Source: Burkholderiales bacterium
Lineage (GTDB): Bacteria; Pseudomonadota; Gammaproteobacteria; Burkholderiales; Casimicrobiaceae
Direction: 5' to 3'
Assembly: GCA_016790165.1 (NCBI GenBank)
Contig: JAEUPL010000001.1
Coordinates: forward strand, 124,001-188,000
Length of the DNA stretch: 64,000 nucleotides
Positions 10,949 through 55,841 of this stretch are shown here, in pieces; the stretch's first letter is position 1, and every line of letters starts with the position of its first letter. Below the pieces are notes generated by a model that worked only from the letters and a program-made list of their open reading frames with translations, made no database searches and had not been told where the DNA came from. The position numbers were made by a program, and so were the translations under genes.

Positions 10949-11073
10949 CAACAGCTTTTTAGGTCAAACGACAGCCATCCGGTCGATACGCTGATGAAAT
11001 GGGAATAGTCGACTTTTTCCATATCATGGGCAAAAACCGCTTGCATCAGTCGGTCAAGCCAAAAAGCTGTTAC
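10949..11073. repeat. 125-bp palindromic intergenic element, copy A
   Basis: It begins AACAGCTTTTTAGG and ends in the inverted counterpart CCAAAAAGCTGTTA, with GTCGAC at 11008-11013, positions 60-65 of the element. The flanks of the core are A/T-rich (AATAGTCGACTTTTT). It sits 9 bp after the stop of the GT41 gene and about 93 bp upstream of the carboxypeptidase start. Four other copies share length, ends and core offset. Confidence 0.85.
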
Positions 11074-18608: not shown

Positions 18609-20591
18609 CTAAATGAGCGCCTTCGCCTTCGCGACGACGTTCTCAACCGTGAAGCCGAAGTGCTTCATCAGCACACCCGCCGGCGCCGATTCACCAAACG
18701 TATCGATGCCGAGCACAGCGCCGGGCGTTTGCCCGCCGTGCACGTATTTCCACCAACCGTCACTGACACCCGCCTCAATGGCCAGCTTGGGCAGTTCGGG
18801 TGAGAGCACCGCTTCCTTGTACTCAGGGCTCTGCGCGTCGAACAGCTGCGTGCAGGGCATCGACACCACGCGCGCCTCAACGCCGTCGGCGGCGAGCGTC
18901 TTTTGCGCTGCCAATGCGAGGCCAACTTCCGAGCCGGTTGCAATGAGAATCAGTTTCGGCGTCTTGGCTTCGGCGACGATATAACCACCACGACGGATCA
19001 GCGCTTCGTGCGACGCGTCGCGCTTGATGACGGCGGTGTTCTGGCGCGACAAACAGAGCATCGTCGGGCCGTTCTTGCGCTCGATGCCACTGGCGTAGGC
19101 GACGGCGCTTTCGAGCGAATCGGCCGGACGCCAGACGTTGAGGCCGGGGATCAGCCGCAGCGAGGCGACGTGCTCTACCGGCTGGTGCGTCGGGCCGTCT
19201 TCGCCGACGCCGATGGAGTCGTGCGTGAAGATGTAGAGCACGCGCTGTTTCATTAGTGCCGCCATGCGTACGGCATTGCGTGCGTAGTCGCTGAACACGA
19301 GGAAGGTGCCAACGTACGGAATCACGCCGCCGTGCAGCGCCATGCCGTTGGCGATGGCACACATGCCGAATTCGCGCACACCGTAGCTGACGTGATTGCC
19401 GCTGCCGTCGGCGATGACCGCCGTCGACTGCTTGTGATTGGTGAGGTTCGAGCCGGTCAAGTCGGCGGAGCCGCCGATCATCTCGGGAAGTGCCGGACCG
19501 AACACTTCCAGCGCGTTCTGCGCGGCCTTGCGGGTGGCGACTTCCTTGTCCACCGCCGTGGCGGCGTCGACTGCGCGCTTCACGATGTCGGCGTAATTGG
19601 CAGGCAATTCACCGGCGAGGCGGCGCTTGAGTTCGGCGTCGGCACCTGCGAAAGCCGTGTTCCATGCGGCCTCCAGCGCAGCGCCGCTGGCCTTCGCGTC
19701 GAGCGCCTCGTAAGCCTCGGACGGCACCACGAAGGGCGCGTGCGTCCAGCCGATGTGCTTGCGCGTGGCGTCGATCTCGTCGCCCATCACTGCGGTGCCA
19801 TGCGCGTCCGCGGTGCCGTGCTTGTTCGGTGAGCCGTGGCCGATGTCGGTCTTGCAGATGATCAGCACCGGCTTCGCGGTTTCTTTCTTGGCCGTTTCGA
19901 TGGCGGCATCCACCGCCGGAATGCTGTGCCCGTCAATCGGGCCGATCACATGCCAGCCGTAGGCGCGGAAGCGCTCGGCGGTGTTGTCGCGGAACCAGCC
20001 GTGCACCTCGCCATCGATCGAAATGCCGTTGTCGTCGTAGAACGCCACCAGTTTGTTCAGGCCCCACACCCCCGCCAGCGAGCAGGCCTCGTGCGACACG
20101 CCCTCCATCATGCAGCCGTCGCCGAGGAAGACGTAGGTGCGGTGGTCGATGACATCGCCAAAGCGCTTGTTCAGCAGCTTCTCGGCCAGCGCCATGCCGA
20201 CGGCGTTGGCGATGCCTTGCCCGAGCGGTCCGGTGGTGGTTTCGATACCCGCGGTAATACCGACCTCGGGGTGCCCCGGCGTCTTGCTGTGCAGCTGGCG
20301 GAACTTGCGGATGTCGTCCATCGACAGGTCGTAGCCGGAGAGGTGCAGCAACGAATACGGCAGCATCGAGCCGTGGCCGTTCGATACCACGAAGCGGTCG
20401 CGGTTGGGCCAGTGCGGGTTCGCCGGGTTGTGGCGCAAATGCTTTGACCAGAGTGCCACGGCGATTTCCGCCATGCCCATCGGCATGCCCTGATGGCCGG
20501 ATTTGGCGGCGGCCACGGCATCGACCGCGAGCATTCGGATGGCGTTGGCGGCCGTGTGGAGGGCGGAGGCGGAGGGCGCAGGCGTGGTCAT
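18609..20591 (-). CDS. tkt: Transketolase
   Basis: 660 residues from ATG 20591. A thiamine-diphosphate enzyme of the pentose phosphate (or Calvin) pathway that transfers two-carbon ketol units. Visible features: [14 protein letters not shown], the TPP/Mg motif [18 protein letters not shown] with [14 protein letters not shown], the pyrimidine-domain segment [20 protein letters not shown], and [19 protein letters not shown], all typical of transketolase rather than DXS or the PDH E1. It heads the tkt-gap-GNAT-pgk cluster. Repeat copy B lies 176 bp upstream. Confidence 0.97.
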
Positions 20592-20897
20592 GCGGGTAGC
20601 GTAGAGAGGGAAGAAATGCGTAACTCGCGCCGGGCGCGGGTTAGCCCTCAATTATCGCCGAGCCGCGATGACGCAGCACTGACGGCGAGGCACCGATCGC
20701 CGACGGTGCAACGCCGGCATCGCGTTCGCTGCTGGCGTGACGGTTCGACGGGCACCAGTCAATAGCTCAACAGCTTTTGCGCCTAAACGACCGGCGGGCG
20801 GTCGTTACAGCCAAAAATGAGTGAATGTCAACTTGACAAAAAATACCGTGTAGACCACCGTGAGGCGGTCGATGCGGCCAAAAAGCCGTAACCCGCG
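20592..20897. other. Intergenic region tkt / rhodanese
   Basis: 306 bp with no gene on either strand. The tkt-proximal 175 bp probably contain the tkt promoter, though I could not identify a convincing -35/-10 pair. The distal part, 20768-20892, is repeat copy B, which ends 5 bp before the rhodanese stop codon. Confidence 0.6.
20768..20892. repeat. 125-bp palindromic intergenic element, copy B
   Basis: Starts CAACAGCTTTTGCGCC and ends GGCCAAAAAGCCGTAAC. The central hexamer is GTCAAC (20827-20832), at positions 60-65, one base different from the GTCGAC of the other copies. The left half has a perfect 8-bp hairpin, AACGACCG / CGGTCGTT (20786-20806). Confidence 0.85.
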
Positions 20898-23413: not shown

Positions 23414-23932
23414 GGGGCGCTTCCGGTGAGTGTTGTCGCGCTGATTGTAGGCATGCCGCCGATGCTGCGCTGCGGTCCGTGCCTCGGGAAACCCGGAACA
23501 TCCGCCTGAACGCATCGCGGCGCTTTGCGGAGCCGTGCCGTGGGCACAACGACACCGTCGGAGCCGGCGCAACGCGTCTGCGGCGGCCGGCCCCGTTCGC
23601 GCTGATTTGGCTTTTTAGTGCTGTAGACCGCCAAATGGTGATTGCAGCCACAAAAACGATAAAGTCGACTTATCGAAATTACGTCCTACAACCTGCGTGC
23701 GTGTGTCGTTGCGCGGAAAAAGCTGTATTGCTGCTGGCGAACCGACAAGAGCGGAGAGAATTATTTTTGGAATCGCTTTCCATATTGTGAAATTTTGGAT
23801 AGCATTCCGTTTGAACCCGGCGCATCACTGCCACCACAATGACAGGATGCTGCGCCGCACCAACGCCACAATCCGTGGACACGCAATGCGACGCTGCGCC
23901 ACCCGCAGCTGTCACCATCAAGGAGGCCCGGC
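23414..23932. other. Divergent intergenic region bug / aceE
   Basis: 519 bp without a gene. It holds repeat copy C (23605-23728) and, nearer aceE, an AT-rich stretch (23757-23812) that probably carries the aceE promoter. I could not find a convincing -35/-10 pair. The aceE start is preceded by AAGGAGG (23920-23926), a full anti-Shine-Dalgarno match 6 bp before the ATG. Confidence 0.55.
23605..23728. repeat. 125-bp palindromic intergenic element, copy C
   Basis: It starts TTTGGCTTTTTAGTGC and ends GCGGAAAAAGCTGTA. The core is GATAAAGTCGACTTATCG with GTCGAC at 23664-23669, giving the same 60-65 offset. The core itself is palindromic over 16 bp. It is the most diverged copy at its left end. Confidence 0.8.
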
Positions 23933-36284: not shown

Positions 36285-36409
36285 CAATGGCTTTTTGCCT
36301 CCGACGGCTGCTACACGCCAATTAGCGCGCGATTCTCGTAAAAGTCGACTAGACATAAAATCACCCGCAAACCACCGCCGGTTCGTCGCTAGCGTCATGG
36401 AGCTGTTAG
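36285..36409. repeat. 125-bp palindromic intergenic element, copy D
   Basis: Starts CAATGGCTTTTTGCC; ends GGAGCTGTTAG. The core AAAAGTCGACTAGAC has GTCGAC at 36344-36349, again offset 60-65. The right-hand terminal repeat has lost the A-run. It lies between pyrF and prmC; the remaining 127 bp to the pyrF stop (36410-36536) show nothing recognisable. Confidence 0.8.
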
Positions 36410-36536
36410 AGCGCATTCGTTGCCCTGGATAACGCGATCCCGATACTCGGCGCCGCTGCCGTGGCTGCGGCGCTCGCCAAGCAGGCTGCGTTCCTGCGCG
36501 CCGGGTGACGTATTTCAGCAACCTGCTAGCAGCCTG

Positions 36537-37346
36537 CTAGATGACGGCGCCGTCTTCCAGCATCTGCTCCACCGCACCGCGTGCCGCGCGTGCGAAATCA
36601 TCGCCGCTGGATGCATAGATCACCGAGCGCGAAGCGTTGATGACGAGGCCCGTGCCTTTGCTGTCGCGGCCCACGGCGACGGTGGCTTTCATGTCGCCGC
36701 CCTGCGCGCCGACGCCGGGCACGAGCAAGGGCATGTCGCCCACCGCGCGGCGCACGTCCGCAATCACCTGCGGCACCGTGGCGCCGACGACGAGGCTGAT
36801 GTTCTTGTTTGCATTCCATTGCTCCGCAGCGAGCTTGGCAACACGCAGGTAGAGCGGTTCGCCGTCGATCAACTGCTCCTGCAGATCAGCTCCGCCCGCG
36901 TTGGAGGTGCGGCAGAGCAGGATGGTGCCGCGATCGGCGTACTTGGTGAACGGCGCGATCGAGTCGCCACCAAGGTAGGGGTTCACCGTCACCGCGTCGG
37001 CGCGATAGCGTTCGAACGCCTCCACCGCGTAGAACTCGGCCGTGCTGCCGACGTCGCCGCGCTTGGCGTCGAGGATCACCGGGATGCCAGGGTAGCGGTC
37101 GTGGATATAGTCAATCGTCGCGGCGAGCTGGTCCTCGGCAGCCACGGCGGCATAGTGCGCAAACTGCGGCTTGTAGGCGCACACGATGTCGTGCGTGGCG
37201 TCGATGATGGCCTTGTTGAACGCAAAGATCGCATCCGGCCGGTTGAACAGCCGCTCGGGCAAGCGCTTCTTCTCCGGGTCCAGCCCGACGCAGACGAGGG
37301 AGCGCGCGCGGAGCCAGGATGCGTTGAGTTTTTCCTGGAAGTTCAT
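36537..37346 (-). CDS. pyrF: Orotidine 5'-phosphate decarboxylase
   Basis: 269 residues, matching the longer group (type 2) of OMP decarboxylases. The active-site LDAKRGDVGSTAE contains the catalytic Lys95 and Asp98; SLVCVGLDPEKKRLPE and LLVPGVGAQGGD complete the substrate and phosphate sites. It makes UMP in pyrimidine synthesis. It is flanked by the repeat family copies D (downstream) and heptamer copy 3 (upstream), and separates prmC from prfA. Confidence 0.95.
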   Translation of the reverse strand: MNFQEKLNASWLRARSLVCVGLDPEKKRLPERLFNRPDAIFAFNKAIIDATHDIVCAYKPQFAHYAAVAAEDQLAATIDYIHDRYPGIPVILDAKRGDVGSTAEFYAVEAFERYRADAVTVNPYLGGDSIAPFTKYADRGTILLCRTSNAGGADLQEQLIDGEPLYLRVAKLAAEQWNANKNISLVVGATVPQVIADVRRAVGDMPLLVPGVGAQGGDMKATVAVGRDSKGTGLVINASRSVIYASSGDDFARAARGAVEQMLEDGAVI

Positions 37347-37358
37347 TTTGGCTCCGCA

Positions 37359-37535
37359 CAGGACGAATGACGCATGACGAATGACACAAAGCAGGGCATG
37401 ATTGCCTCCATGTATCGAACGGTTCCGAGGGGATAAATCATTTGTCTCTCCAACTTACGTCACCAGAACAAAAATATTGACCAAGCTTTGCGTCCTAGCG
37501 ACCACCGGGAGCGTCGTCATTCGTCTTTCGTCCTG
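37359..37535. repeat. Inverted CATTCGT/ACGAATG heptamer repeat, copy 3
   Basis: Left arm 37359-37385 (GACGAATGACGCATGACG units) and right arm 37512-37535 (CGTCATTCGTCTTTCGTCC) are inverted relative to each other around a 126-bp core. The core is AT-richer than the surroundings. It lies between pyrF and the prfA stop. Confidence 0.8.
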
Positions 37536-51818: not shown

Positions 51819-53744
51819 TCACTTCGACGCCAACAATTCCCACCGCTCCATCGCCGCCATGATGAGTTCATCGAGCTCCGCCGCGCGGCGCGACAGGTCA
51901 GTGGCTCGTTTGGCGTCGCGCTGATAGATCGCGCCATCGGCGAGTTCGGCGTTGATGGTGCCTTGTTCTACTTCGTAGGCTTCGATCTGCGCGGGGAGGC
52001 CGTCGAGTTCGCGCTGTTCCTTGTAGCTGAGCTTTTGCCTGGGCTTGTCTGGCGATGCGGCAGCGCCAGGGTTGACGGGCTTTGCCTCAGGCTTGACCTT
52101 TTCGCCACCGGAAGTGGGGGGGGGCTTGACGCCTTCTTGAGCCTGTTCGGCAATCGCCTGCATCACCTTCACCTGCGCCTGCCAGTCCGTGATGCCGCCT
52201 TCGTACTCACGCCACAATCCGTTGCCTTCAGCGACCAGACAACTGGTGACCACGTTGTCGAGAAAGCGGCGGTCGTGGCTGACGATGAAGACGGTGCCCT
52301 CGTAGTCGGCCAGCTTCTGTTCGAGCAGTTCGAGCGTATCGATGTCGAGATCGTTGGTCGGCTCGTCGAGCACCAGCACGTTTGCCTCTCTGGCGAAATG
52401 CCGCGCCAGCAGCAGCCGGTTGCGCTCGCCACCCGAGAGCATGCGCACTGGCGCGTTGGCACGCTCGGGCGGGAACAGGAAATCCTGCAGATAGGTCATG
52501 ACGTGCGTGCGCTTGCCACCCACTTCGATCCAGTCACTGCCCGGCGAGATGAATTCGCCGAGCGTGGCGTTTTCGTCCAGCCCGTCGCGCATCTGGTCGA
52601 AATACGCGACCTGCAAGTTGTGGCCGACGCGAATCTTGCCGCGGTCGGCTGCGAGCTCACCGAGAATCAGTTTGAGTAGCGTGGTCTTGCCGATGCCATT
52701 GGGGCCGACCAGTCCGACCTTGTCGCCGCGCAGGATGGTTGCGGTGAAGTTGCGCACGATGACACGCTCGGCGAATGCCTTCGACACATCGGTCAACTCG
52801 GCAATCACCTTGCCCGACGCGGCACCACTCACGATGTCCATCCTGACGCGACCGAGGGACTCGCGTCGCGCGGCGCGTTGCAGGCGCAGCGATTCCAGCC
52901 GCCGCACACGGCCTTCGTTGCGCGTGCGCCGTGCTTCAATGCCTTTGCGAATCCACGCTTCTTCCTGTGCCAGCAGCTTGTCGAACTTGGCGTTAACCGT
53001 CGCTTCAAATTCAAGCTGCGCCGCCTTGGTAGTTTCGTAGGCGGCGTAGTTGCCGGGGAAGCCCGTAAGTTTGCCGCGATCAAGCTCCACGATGCGGGTG
53101 ACCACATTGTCAAGAAACGTGCGATCGTGGCTGATGACGATGGCGCTGCCCTTGAACGCCGTGAGCAGCCCCTCGAGCCACGCAATGGCGGCGAGGTCGA
53201 GGTGGTTGGTGGGCTCGTCCAGCAGCAGCAAATCCGGGCCGGCGACCAGTGCCCGGGCGATAGCGACGCGCTTTTTCAGGCCACCGGAGAGGGTGGCAAC
53301 GGGCGTGTCCGGCGCAAGCCCGAGCTGCGTCAGCGTGGTGGCGACGCGCGCCTCCCAGGTCCAGCCGTCGAGCGCGTCAATCTCGTGCTGCAACGTTGCC
53401 AGATGCTCGGCGTCGGGTGACGCGGCATGCGAGGCAGTTTCAAACTGTGTCCGCAGCGCGCGCACCCGCGCCAGCCCGTCGGCCACGGCATCAAAAATGC
53501 TCGCGCCGTCAGCGAACTGCGGCTCCTGCACCACGGTTGCCACTCGCAGGCCACCCTGCACTGCCATTTCGCCATCGTCGAGCGATTGCGTGCCGGCAAG
53601 CACGCGCAGGAGGGAGGTCTTGCCGGCGCCGTTGCGGCCAATCAGGCCGATGCGCTCGCGCGATTCAATGGCAAGGTCAGCGCCGTCCAGCAGCGGCGCG
53701 AGCCCGAAGGCGAGGTGAGCGTTTTGCAGAGTGAGAAGAGCCAT
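51819..53744 (-). CDS. uup: ABC-F family ATPase Uup
   Basis: 641 residues with two ABC ATPase domains: Walker A GRNGAGKTSLL and GPNGIGKTTLL, signatures LSGGLKKRVAIARALV and LSGGERNRLLLARHF, each with a DEPTN Walker B. No membrane segments are present. The C-terminal 80 residues (KLSYKEQRELDGLPAQIEAYE...) form the coiled coil characteristic of Uup rather than EttA. ABC-F proteins act on the ribosome or DNA; Uup is linked to transposon excision and replication stress in E. coli. Repeat copy E ends 23 bp upstream of the start. Confidence 0.93.
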   Translation of the reverse strand: MALLTLQNAHLAFGLAPLLDGADLAIESRERIGLIGRNGAGKTSLLRVLAGTQSLDDGEMAVQGGLRVATVVQEPQFADGASIFDAVADGLARVRALRTQFETASHAASPDAEHLATLQHEIDALDGWTWEARVATTLTQLGLAPDTPVATLSGGLKKRVAIARALVAGPDLLLLDEPTNHLDLAAIAWLEGLLTAFKGSAIVISHDRTFLDNVVTRIVELDRGKLTGFPGNYAAYETTKAAQLEFEATVNAKFDKLLAQEEAWIRKGIEARRTRNEGRVRRLESLRLQRAARRESLGRVRMDIVSGAASGKVIAELTDVSKAFAERVIVRNFTATILRGDKVGLVGPNGIGKTTLLKLILGELAADRGKIRVGHNLQVAYFDQMRDGLDENATLGEFISPGSDWIEVGGKRTHVMTYLQDFLFPPERANAPVRMLSGGERNRLLLARHFAREANVLVLDEPTNDLDIDTLELLEQKLADYEGTVFIVSHDRRFLDNVVTSCLVAEGNGLWREYEGGITDWQAQVKVMQAIAEQAQEGVKPPPTSGGEKVKPEAKPVNPGAAASPDKPRQKLSYKEQRELDGLPAQIEAYEVEQGTINAELADGAIYQRDAKRATDLSRRAAELDELIMAAMERWELLASK

Positions 53745-54143
53745 TCAGCAAGTGTAGCGACAGCGGGATACAGCTTTTTGGCTGTAACGGCACATACACG
53801 CTATGTTTAGCGCAATTTCGTTAATAGTCGACATGAGAAAAAATGGCTGCTGAACGACCAAACAGAGGTCGTTCAGGCCGAAAAGCTGTTTCTGATACAA
53901 CGCGTGCGTCGCGATTGAAGCAGGCGCGCATTCGCCGCGCCGATGCGCAGCGAGTGCAGGACACATCGGGAATTTGCATGCTGCATTGCATCAAGTCAAA
54001 CGCGGCGCGATGCACCGTCTGGCGCGCTTTGCCGCGCTATCATGCATCGCATCCGGCGCGGCGGGCGCGGGGCAGTGACGCGCGGTTGAACTCACCGAAA
54101 ACTTGCCCGCAACGCCGACGAGAACGACAACGAGGAGGACCCG
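53745..54143. other. Divergent intergenic region uup / fadD
   Basis: 399 bp without a gene. The first 150 bp hold repeat copy E (53768-53891). The rest (53892-54143) is a GC-rich leader to fadD; an AACGAGGAGG ribosome-binding site lies at about 54129-54138. I could not identify clear promoter boxes. The uup promoter must lie within or beyond copy E, since only 23 bp separate the two. Confidence 0.5.
53768..53891. repeat. 125-bp palindromic intergenic element, copy E
   Basis: It starts ATACAGCTTTTTGGCTGTAAC and ends GGCCGAAAAGCTGTTT. GTCGAC (53827-53832) has the same 60-65 offset. The right half contains a 10-bp hairpin CTGAACGACC / GGTCGTTCAG (53850-53876), and the left end TACAGC...GCTGTA is itself a small hairpin. 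Confidence 0.85.
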
Positions 54144-55841
54144 ATGGACAAACCGTGGCTCAAGAGCTACCCGGCCGGCATGCCCGCCGAGATTAAGTAC
54201 GACCAGTACAGCTCGATTGTGCAATTGCTCGAAGAGAGCTTTCAGAAATTCGCCACCCGCCCCGCCTTCACGTGCATGGGCAAGACCATTACCTACAGCG
54301 AGGTGGACAACTTCTCGCGCGCCATCGGCGCCTATCTGCAAAGCCTCGGCTTGCAGCCGGGCGACCGGGTAGCCTGCATGATGCCCAACGTACTGCAGTA
54401 CCCGGTGGCGGTTGCGGGCATCCTGCGGGCTGGCTTTGTGGCGGTGAACGTGAATCCGCTCTACACACCGCGCGAACTTGAGCATCAGTTGAAGGACTCC
54501 GGGTCGAAGGCCATCATCATTCTTGAAAACTTCGCCGCCACCTTACAGCAGGTGGTCGACAAGACCCCAGTCAAGCACATCGTGCTCGCCGCGATGGGCG
54601 ACATGTTCGGGTTCGTGAAGGGTGCACTCGTCAACTACGTCGTGCGCAACAAGAAAAAAATGGTGCCGGCGTTTTCCCTGCCCACGGCCGTCAAGTTCAA
54701 CGATGCCGTGGCGCGCGGCAAGGGCCTCGCCATGGCGCCGTCCAGGGCGAATTTTGAAGATCCGGCCGTGCTGCAATACACCGGCGGCACCACCGGTGTA
54801 TCCAAGGGCGCGACGTTGCTCCATCGCAATATCGTCGCCAACGTGCTGCAATCCGAAGCGTGGATGCAGCCGGCGCTGACCAACCCGAAAAAACCGAAGG
54901 CGCCGGATCAGATGACCACCGTCTGTGCGCTGCCGCTTTATCACATCTTCGCCTTCACGATCTGCTATCTGCTGGCCATGCGGACGGGCGGACTGGTGGT
55001 GCTGATCCCCAACCCGCGTGACATCCCGGGCACCATCAAGGCGCTCAAGGGGTTCAAGATTCACATGTTCCCGGCAGTCAACACGCTGTACAACGCTTTG
55101 GTCAACGACCCCACGTTCAAGGAGCTTGACGTGTCCGACCTGCGCGTGGCCAACGGCGGCGGTATGGCGGTACAAAAAGCGGTCGCCGACAAATGGCTCG
55201 CCGCTACCGGCTGCCCGATTGTCGAGGGCTATGGCCTCTCGGAAACCTCGCCATCGGCCACCTGCAACCCCACGGACACCGACGCCTACTCGGGCACCAT
55301 CGGCCTGCCCTTGCCGTCCACCGAGATCGCCATCCGCGATGACGACAACAACGACGTCAAGCAGGGCGAGCCAGGCGAAATCTGCATCCGCGGCCCGCAG
55401 GTGATGGCGGGCTACTGGCAGCGGCCAGACGAAACCGCCAAGGTCTTTGCGCCGGACGGTTTCTTTAAGTCCGGCGACATCGGCGTGATGGACGAGCGCG
55501 GCTACGTAAAGATTGTGGACCGCAAAAAGGACATGGTGCTCGTGTCGGGCTTCAACGTCTATCCGAACGAAGTGGAAGATGTCGTCGCCAGTTGCCCCGG
55601 TGTGATGGAGTGCGCGGTCATCGGCGTGCCGGACGACAAATCCGGCGAAGCGGTGAAGGTGTTCGTCGTCAAGAAAGACCCGAACCTCACCGAGCAGCAG
55701 GTGCGCGACTACTGCGAAGCCAACCTCGCCGGATACAAGAAGCCCAAGTACATCGTCTTCCGCGCTGATCTTCCCAAGACGCCGGTCGGAAAAATTTTGC
55801 GGCGGGAGTTGCGGGACTTGGACAAGAAAGCGGCGGCGTGA
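54144..55841 (+). CDS. fadD: Long-chain-fatty-acid-CoA ligase
   Basis: 565 residues. It activates long-chain fatty acids to acyl-CoA through an acyl-AMP intermediate. The AMP-binding P-loop is QYTGGTTGVSKGA, followed by the adenylate motif YGLSETSPSATCNP, GEPGEICIRGPQVMAGYW, and the C-terminal domain with the catalytic-lysine region PKTPVGKILRRELRDLD. No signal or transmembrane segment. It is the start of the plus-strand run and is preceded by AGGAGG. Confidence 0.95.
   Translation: MDKPWLKSYPAGMPAEIKYDQYSSIVQLLEESFQKFATRPAFTCMGKTITYSEVDNFSRAIGAYLQSLGLQPGDRVACMMPNVLQYPVAVAGILRAGFVAVNVNPLYTPRELEHQLKDSGSKAIIILENFAATLQQVVDKTPVKHIVLAAMGDMFGFVKGALVNYVVRNKKKMVPAFSLPTAVKFNDAVARGKGLAMAPSRANFEDPAVLQYTGGTTGVSKGATLLHRNIVANVLQSEAWMQPALTNPKKPKAPDQMTTVCALPLYHIFAFTICYLLAMRTGGLVVLIPNPRDIPGTIKALKGFKIHMFPAVNTLYNALVNDPTFKELDVSDLRVANGGGMAVQKAVADKWLAATGCPIVEGYGLSETSPSATCNPTDTDAYSGTIGLPLPSTEIAIRDDDNNDVKQGEPGEICIRGPQVMAGYWQRPDETAKVFAPDGFFKSGDIGVMDERGYVKIVDRKKDMVLVSGFNVYPNEVEDVVASCPGVMECAVIGVPDDKSGEAVKVFVVKKDPNLTEQQVRDYCEANLAGYKKPKYIVFRADLPKTPVGKILRRELRDLDKKAAA

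Follow-up and report, generated by a model that had tools for sequence, protein, structure and literature searches.

Dispersed 122-bp dyad-symmetric intergenic elements with species-specific inner repeats in a genus of the Casimicrobiaceae

Five elements in the window

The window, i.e., the whole stretch of 64,000 bp analysed here (positions 124,001 to 188,000 of contig JAEUPL010000001.1 from a Burkholderiales bacterium of the Casimicrobiaceae, GCA_016790165.1), carries five copies of a dyad-symmetric intergenic element. The first-pass annotation had placed them at 10949-11073, 20768-20892, 23605-23728, 36285-36409, and 53768-53891 with a core GTCGAC (GTCAAC in the 20768 copy) at positions 60-65 of every copy, and both the places and the core offset were confirmed. 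Alignment of the five copies was almost gapless and revealed 29 invariant columns, and a weight matrix recovered the same five in the window and none besides. The reported length of 124-125 bp proved right in being fixed, but the symmetric unit was corrected to 122 bp, reaching from -61 to +61 about the dyad; the inverted ends were found as well, some of them degenerate (left end of the copy at 23605, right end of the copy at 36285). Counting dyad matches about the core resulted in 37, 31, 28, 29, and 32 of 62 for the five copies compared with a window background of 16.7 +/- 3.75 (63,800 positions), and 1, 26, 200, 105, and 17 window positions, respectively, scored as high or higher.

The first element (10950..11071) has its dyad between 11010 and 11011 and the core GTCGAC at 11008-11013, with end blocks GCTTTT (10954-10959) and AAAAGC (11062-11067) and inner repeats at 10966-10987 and 11034-11055; an orthologous element was identified in the related genome G005 and an element at the same place in G015. 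The second (20769..20890, dyad between 20829 and 20830, core GTCAAC at 20827-20832) lies between the stop codon of a rhodanese-family gene (20898) and a transketolase gene on the minus strand (18609-20651), and orthologous elements were detected in G005, G012, G015, G007, and G008 and, by eye, in G013. The third (23606..23727, dyad between 23666 and 23667, core GTCGAC at 23664-23669) is located in the divergent intergenic region of a TctC-family gene and a pyruvate dehydrogenase E1-family gene, with orthologous elements in G005 and G012. The fourth (36286..36407, dyad between 36346 and 36347, core GTCGAC at 36344-36349) adjoins a PrmC-type methyltransferase gene, and its spot is the mapping target of an element from record JAKPSO. 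The fifth (53769..53890, dyad between 53829 and 53830, core GTCGAC at 53827-53832) is found between an ABC ATPase gene on the minus strand (51819-53744) and a gene for an AMP-binding enzyme (54144-55841); for this one, mapping in the fetched DNA of the relatives gave no ortholog.

The ten flanking open reading frames scanned showed no common theme in function, nine of them having a Pfam match; the tenth, 36420-37370, is possibly spurious, as our gene caller predicted a gene on the opposite strand. Searches against Rfam at gathering scores resulted in no match at the five elements, and ARAGORN detected no tRNA gene in the window. The sole Rfam match in the window was an FMN riboswitch (RF00050, 33531-33709, minus strand, 103.4 bits).

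Structure and distribution in the genome

A search for the exact pattern GCTTTT..GTCGAC..AAAAGC in the 3.76-Mb genome (G000) revealed 73 matches and none in the reversed control, so that the earlier judgement that the five copies are hard to attribute to chance was upheld. Allowing up to three mismatches at fixed spacing resulted in 207 matches, again with none in the reversed control, and the scan for further copies that had been proposed to challenge the family instead brought the number to about 200. For 464 kb of this genome (the window and another 400 kb), the DNA was read directly with a weight matrix seeded with 13 exact hits and iterated, which led to 37 intact elements with scores of 52-114 and one further copy with a 3-bp deletion at the dyad, while nothing scored above 5 in the reversed sequence. 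Apart from the two halves of the deleted copy, these 464 kb contained no isolated half scoring above 12 bits. The density thus amounts to about one element per 11-12 kb where the DNA was read.

Based on the weight matrix, each element is a 122-bp dyad with GCTTTT ends, an inner inverted repeat per half, phased A/T tracts, and a GTC/GAC centre. Read from the outside, a half starts with [AT]AC[AG]GCTTTTT (-61 to -51), followed by the inner arms TAACGAC (-45 to -39) and CGGTCGTT (-31 to -24), then AGCC and a T or A tract reaching to -11, and finally AA/TT and GTC at -5 to -1. The description of the internal sequence as poorly conserved was amended accordingly, for a conserved inner inverted repeat (AACGAC..GGTCGTT) and A/T tracts are present in each half and free spacer columns lie between them. 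Conservation ranges from 100% (T at -2) down to near background (-9 to -7), and this very uneven pattern, together with the fixed length, supports the earlier proposal that ends, core, and length are under selection. The A/T clusters displayed a dominant period of 9.5-9.6 bp in all six sets of elements analysed. The full element contains 88.6 bits of information, about six times the c. 14 bits needed to pick 207 sites from a genome of this size (log2 of 3.76 Mb divided by 207), an excess that is odd for a single binding site.

Prediction with a home-made hexamer gene caller placed none of the 38 elements (including the deleted copy) within a gene, in DNA with a coding share of 83-90%, and ten of them reach 1-28 bp into the end of a gene. 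Regarding their context, 25 were found between tandem genes, six between convergent, and six between divergent genes, with one unclassed at a contig edge, a mix about equal to that of the intergenic regions of at least 100 bp (121 tandem, 24 convergent, 49 divergent). In tandem contexts, 17 of the 25 elements lie no more than 30 bp from the upstream stop codon, and for 19 of the 25 the distance to the following start is 86 bp or more.

Spacing is even on contig C15, the longest uninterrupted piece analysed, the gaps showing a coefficient of variation (CV) of 0.45 compared with 0.86 for random intergenic placement (P=0.00015), or 0.42 (P=0.00005) without the deleted copy. Even spacing was also observed for 22 elements in G005 (CV 0.54, P=0.0017) and 30 in G007 (CV 0.56, P=0.0004), in both cases against a null of uniform placement only. 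In the first 100 kb of C18, spacing is irregular with gaps of 44 kb and 0.8 kb. The former, the largest element-free gap, spans a stretch of lower GC content (about 18600-46000) with genes that look by eye like those for copper or heavy-metal resistance.

Conserved addresses and species-specific inner repeats

Matches with up to three mismatches were detected in 15 of the 17 genomes of the genus, with the highest counts in G008 (250), G012 (228), G003 (188), G006 (167), and G005 (164) and 0-2 matches per genome in the reversed controls. Genomes with another form of the inner repeat, termed dialect here, scored low (G007 three, G014 nine, controls two each), and the G007 count does not exceed its control because of its different dialect. 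A matrix trained without the genome to be scanned found 37 elements in G000, 41 in G005, and 26 in G007, the dialect being unseen in training for G007 only, as those of G000 and G005 are shared with a training genome; on genome pieces, it revealed seven elements each in G015 and G002 and four each in G011 and G010, the weakest of them uncertain. G009 is sparse, with three exact matches in the whole genome (control 0) and one more in the fetched DNA, i.e., four elements in 329 kb read, part of which had been chosen because of hits. In three G009 loci (L230, L231, and L232), each half is one base shorter, symmetrically; the spacing itself thus changed in this lineage, as judged from these sequences. 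One of the four G009 elements (L216:12984, C47:32984) lies about 3.3 kb from a ParB HTH match (C47:29369-29662). For G016, one pattern match and weak matrix matches that do not resemble elements were obtained, and 240 kb held no credible element.

Outside the genus, one of 43 genomes of the same family revealed a single match with up to two mismatches, and an exact variable-gap pattern gave one match each in G019 and G055 and one control match in G043; 80 kb each of G017 and G019, which belong to other genera, contained no elements. Among the matches listed, the named records were metagenome-assembled genomes titled Burkholderiales, Betaproteobacteria, Proteobacteria, or Pseudomonadota, and viral sequences gave no exact match to the pattern of the G000 type.

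Comparison of loci whose flanks are both collinear in the fetched DNA of a relative demonstrated that the elements keep their addresses wherever this could be compared. Element loci of G000 were occupied in 13 of 14 comparisons (G005 7/7, G012 3/3, G007 2/2, G015 1/2), and its element-free regions held an element in none of 29, giving a Fisher P of 3.8e-10 if the comparisons are taken as independent. Counted by distinct locus, 8/8 were occupied compared with 0/20 element-free regions (P=3.2e-7), of which 16 are long enough for a whole element; for G005 alone, the figures were 7/7 and 0/17. Starting from the relatives, where 134 elements were tried, eight of ten mappable elements had a counterpart in G000, a result that overlaps the former comparison. 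The sole candidate for an empty site was one of the two G015 regions. Orthologous elements were hardly more alike than non-orthologous ones (z -1.1 to 3.1, mean about 0.8, 13 pairs), and such a slight excess is what descent in place predicts, little being left to compare. Altogether, the addresses were kept through speciation and the inner spelling changed.

These dialects are genome-wide within the samples read. G000, G008, and record JAKPSO display AACGAC..GGTCGTT as the inner repeat, G005, G012, and G013 (one element seen) display GCC..GGGC forms, G007 has GCCCAATTTAATTGGGC with a TC/GA core, and G015 a mixed form. Two elements of G015 (L130:69 and L130:5522) carry AACGAC in one half and a CATATT-like sequence in the other, as if two different subunits read them. 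In a tree of the transketolase gene (one gene, 14 rows, JAKPSO 17% filled, the order inside each group being open), G000, G005, G012, and G013 cluster together (100/100) beside G008, G003, and JAKPSO (96/99). G000 therefore carries the dialect of the other group, that of G008 and JAKPSO, against its own transketolase grouping, and this mismatch is suggestive of a dialect switch or an exchange of the putative reader.

Alternative explanations and a putative recognition site

Among described systems, strong DNA gyrase sites, on which about 130 bp would be wrapped symmetrically around a 4-bp staggered cut (here TCGA), are the best named candidate. According to one report, the E. coli gyrase motif is 130 bp long and symmetric with a periodic GC content and a periodicity of 10.75 bp (PMC6379681), and the element resembles this motif and the Mu strong gyrase site in its size (about 125-130 bp), its symmetry about a possible 4-bp centre, and its phased A/T tracts. 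One GyrA/ParC-family match was detected in 13 of the 17 genus genomes (two partial ones in the other four), so that gyrase may be the sole type IIA enzyme. The element differs from gyrase sites, however, in its strong base-specific blocks and in an A/T period of 9.5 bp instead of 10-11. Cleavage preferences given in a further report (-4G, -2A, +1G; PMC12324340) do not fit either: if the cut lies around TCGA, the presumed +1 base is T in 100%, the presumed -4 is mixed, and -2A agrees in part. Of 19 genomes from other genera of the family, 14 likewise had a single GyrA/ParC-family match, and elements were not found in these genera. Moreover, GyrA follows the species grouping and not the dialect. 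The C-terminal domains of GyrA from G000 and G005 are 96.8% identical despite their different dialects, and gyrase was rejected as the dialect reader, GyrA being 95-97% identical between these two (the G003 and G013 pieces in this comparison were partial, and the G012 rows were disregarded). Thus, size and symmetry fit, cleavage preferences and GyrA conservation do not, and we consider gyrase sites an improbable explanation.

ParC of topoisomerase IV seems to be absent from the genus genomes, two GyrA/ParC matches being found in 19 of 24 genomes that represent other families of the order. Loss of topoisomerase IV was dismissed as a correlate of the elements, for it is also indicated in genera without them.

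That the elements are transcribed hairpins or bidirectional terminators appears slightly less probable still. The half consensus resembles a GC-rich stem with a T tract behind it, the proximity to the upstream stop codon (17 of the 25 tandem-context elements) would suit a terminator, and folding beat that of column-shuffled copies (z -1.7 to -6.9) by more than in controls (-1.6 to -3.3). Predicted dyad pairs also exceeded those of column-shuffled copies in 5/5 sets, and a weak dependence between the arms within halves was detected (Stouffer z -3.7; P=0.014 in G000). Column shuffling, however, also breaks the letter runs within a half, and we therefore trusted a test in which intact halves were re-paired. 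Here, the folding energy remained unchanged (Stouffer z -0.48, six sets), and dyad pairs in 52 elements of G000 numbered 31.54 compared with 31.51 after shuffling (P=0.47). A selected hairpin or cruciform would make the halves depend on each other, and no such dependence was found. The first-pass annotation would have counted missing covariation, together with a lack of conserved ends outside the five copies, against the family as such; pairwise covariation was indeed absent (none of 7,260 column pairs at z>4 among 198 elements), which argues against a hairpin but not against the family. In addition, two of the five window copies folded no better than shuffled ones, elements are not enriched between convergent genes and also lie between divergent ones, and Rfam gave no match as described above. 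Based on these results, a cruciform or RNA hairpin over the dyad was set aside as improbable; we ascribe the better-than-shuffled folding to letter runs within a half, part of it being generic according to the controls, and a small contribution of hairpins from within-half arms is possible.

Comparably doubtful is a role as self-recognition mark, i.e., a signal for uptake or transfer with dialects propagated through biased recombination, like those of the DNA uptake sequences (DUS) of Neisseriaceae. Species dialects at fixed addresses, a dialect at odds with the one-gene tree, and the lower-GC stretch inside the largest element-free gap would agree with such a mark, and DUS are likewise described as a dispersed sequence with species dialects. 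DUS are, however, short words with far more copies, in contrast to the long fixed-length dyad described here. Known uptake signals measure about 10-12 bp and are far more numerous, and a length-fixed site of 122 bp and 88 bits is unlike them.

The first-pass annotation had offered a MITE-like mobile element as one of two readings. High copy number, intergenic location, a length of about 125 bp, inverted ends, and a palindromic shape speak for non-autonomous elements of the ERIC or RUP type, now old and immobile, and ERIC/IRU (127 bp) and the RUP, NEMIS, and YPAL MITEs are similar in size, palindromic shape, intergenic placement, and abundance (PMC2229807). The most similar pair in G000 was also more alike than expected (P=0.01), and one G015 region is empty. 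Against mobility, the addresses are common to species (8/8 loci compared with 0/20 element-free regions), different dialects occupy one address, and 37 elements of G000 displayed no excess of target duplications at offsets 55-69 and lengths 2-9. The largest excess over mismatched flanks in the best eight rows was 0.081, corresponding to 7/37 identical flanks with 2.6 expected (offset 66, length 2), and the value at offset 62 was 0.13-0.40 in the six sets. Truncated copies above 12 bits were missing from the 464 kb, and the uneven column conservation is not what neutral decay from a master copy would produce. Copies of a mobile family would share descent, but in five of the six sets, the copies look like independent draws from the column frequencies, the most similar pair being as alike as expected from independent columns (P 0.085-0.835). 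Furthermore, the two halves of one element were as identical to each other as halves of different elements (six sets). In these respects and in the lack of pairing dependence between its halves, the element differs from ERIC-type MITEs, and we regard the mobile reading as unsupported and very unlikely.

REP/BIME/REPIN sequences likewise consist of two inverted units per element with species-specific variants, but a REPIN/RAYT system was rejected, for the five RAYT flanks inspected carry, by eye, GTAG-beginning hairpin repeats of other sequence and not the 122-bp element. Y1-family (RAYT-like) transposase genes are present in 15 of the 17 genus genomes, the G000 copy being located at L160:1243-1764 (C12) with the nearest element 3.9 kb away. 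A GTCGAC-based finder, which would miss other dialects, detected no element within 1.3 kb of 16 such genes, the G015 frame among them being unreliable; the closest lie at about 1.4 kb in G004 and about 1.8 kb in G012b.

With the hairpin and mobility readings disfavoured, both halves would be recognised block by block by protein. The other reading of the first-pass annotation, a site for a dimeric DNA-binding protein, thereby gains support from a dyad whose halves appear independent in base pairing. We consider it rather likely that each element is one very large dyad-symmetric recognition site of 122 bp for a putative multi-subunit protein assembly, most likely with an architectural role; the reading by protein, the wrapping of DNA, and this role are what we infer from sequence and distribution. 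Contact blocks about 10 bp apart in each half would comprise GCTTTT (-57 to -52), the two arms (-45 to -39 and -31 to -24), GCC with the A/T tract (-20 to -11), and the WWGTC half of GTC/GAC. Since the spacers vary freely in sequence but not in length, the protein may contact these blocks from a single face of the DNA, probably bending or wrapping it, and the A/T period of 9.5-9.6 bp is in keeping with one-face contacts or wrapping.

On this recognition-site reading, about 200 sites would mark the G000 chromosome between genes, whatever their orientation. The even spacing, the indifference to gene orientation, and the stable addresses suggest a chromosome-wide rather than a gene-regulatory role, most likely in chromosome architecture, such as anchoring or partitioning of DNA. 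Sites of matS/MatP, SlmA, and Noc are short, with about 13-20 bp. Like these, the elements are dispersed palindromic chromosomal sites, and they share with chromosome-organising sites a non-random and stable genomic distribution; in contrast to them, they are far larger, consist of several blocks, are evenly spread where tested, are restricted to one genus, and switch dialect. The inner-arm specificity of the reader would have changed between species and the sites along with it.

Concerning the identity of the reader, one ParB HTH match was detected in 16 of the 17 genus genomes and none in the remaining one, compared with one in 19 of 23 others; without such an expansion, an extra reader of the ParB/Noc type is not indicated. 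Among the open reading frames near three G009 elements, no candidate stood out by eye.

No described kind of element with these properties is known on the basis of the open-access literature, in which we recognised no paper describing the element, although this is weak evidence of absence. As a more tentative extension, which we hold to be possible but with the balance somewhat against it, the genus might possess a bacterial chromatin system of its own, in which about 200 fixed 122-bp addresses, one every c. 11 kb, serve as docking sites for a putative assembly that wraps the DNA at each of them; the recognition code of this assembly would be swapped between sister species and the sites rewritten genome-wide in place, perhaps following a horizontal exchange of the gene for the reader.

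Hundreds of intergenic sites that are very rich in information and stable in position imply a machine acting across the chromosome, one that is nameless in the literature searched. With a code differing among close relatives while the addresses stay the same, the system represents a natural experiment in the joint change of protein and site, and it allows direct tests of what organises a bacterial chromosome on a scale of 10 kb.
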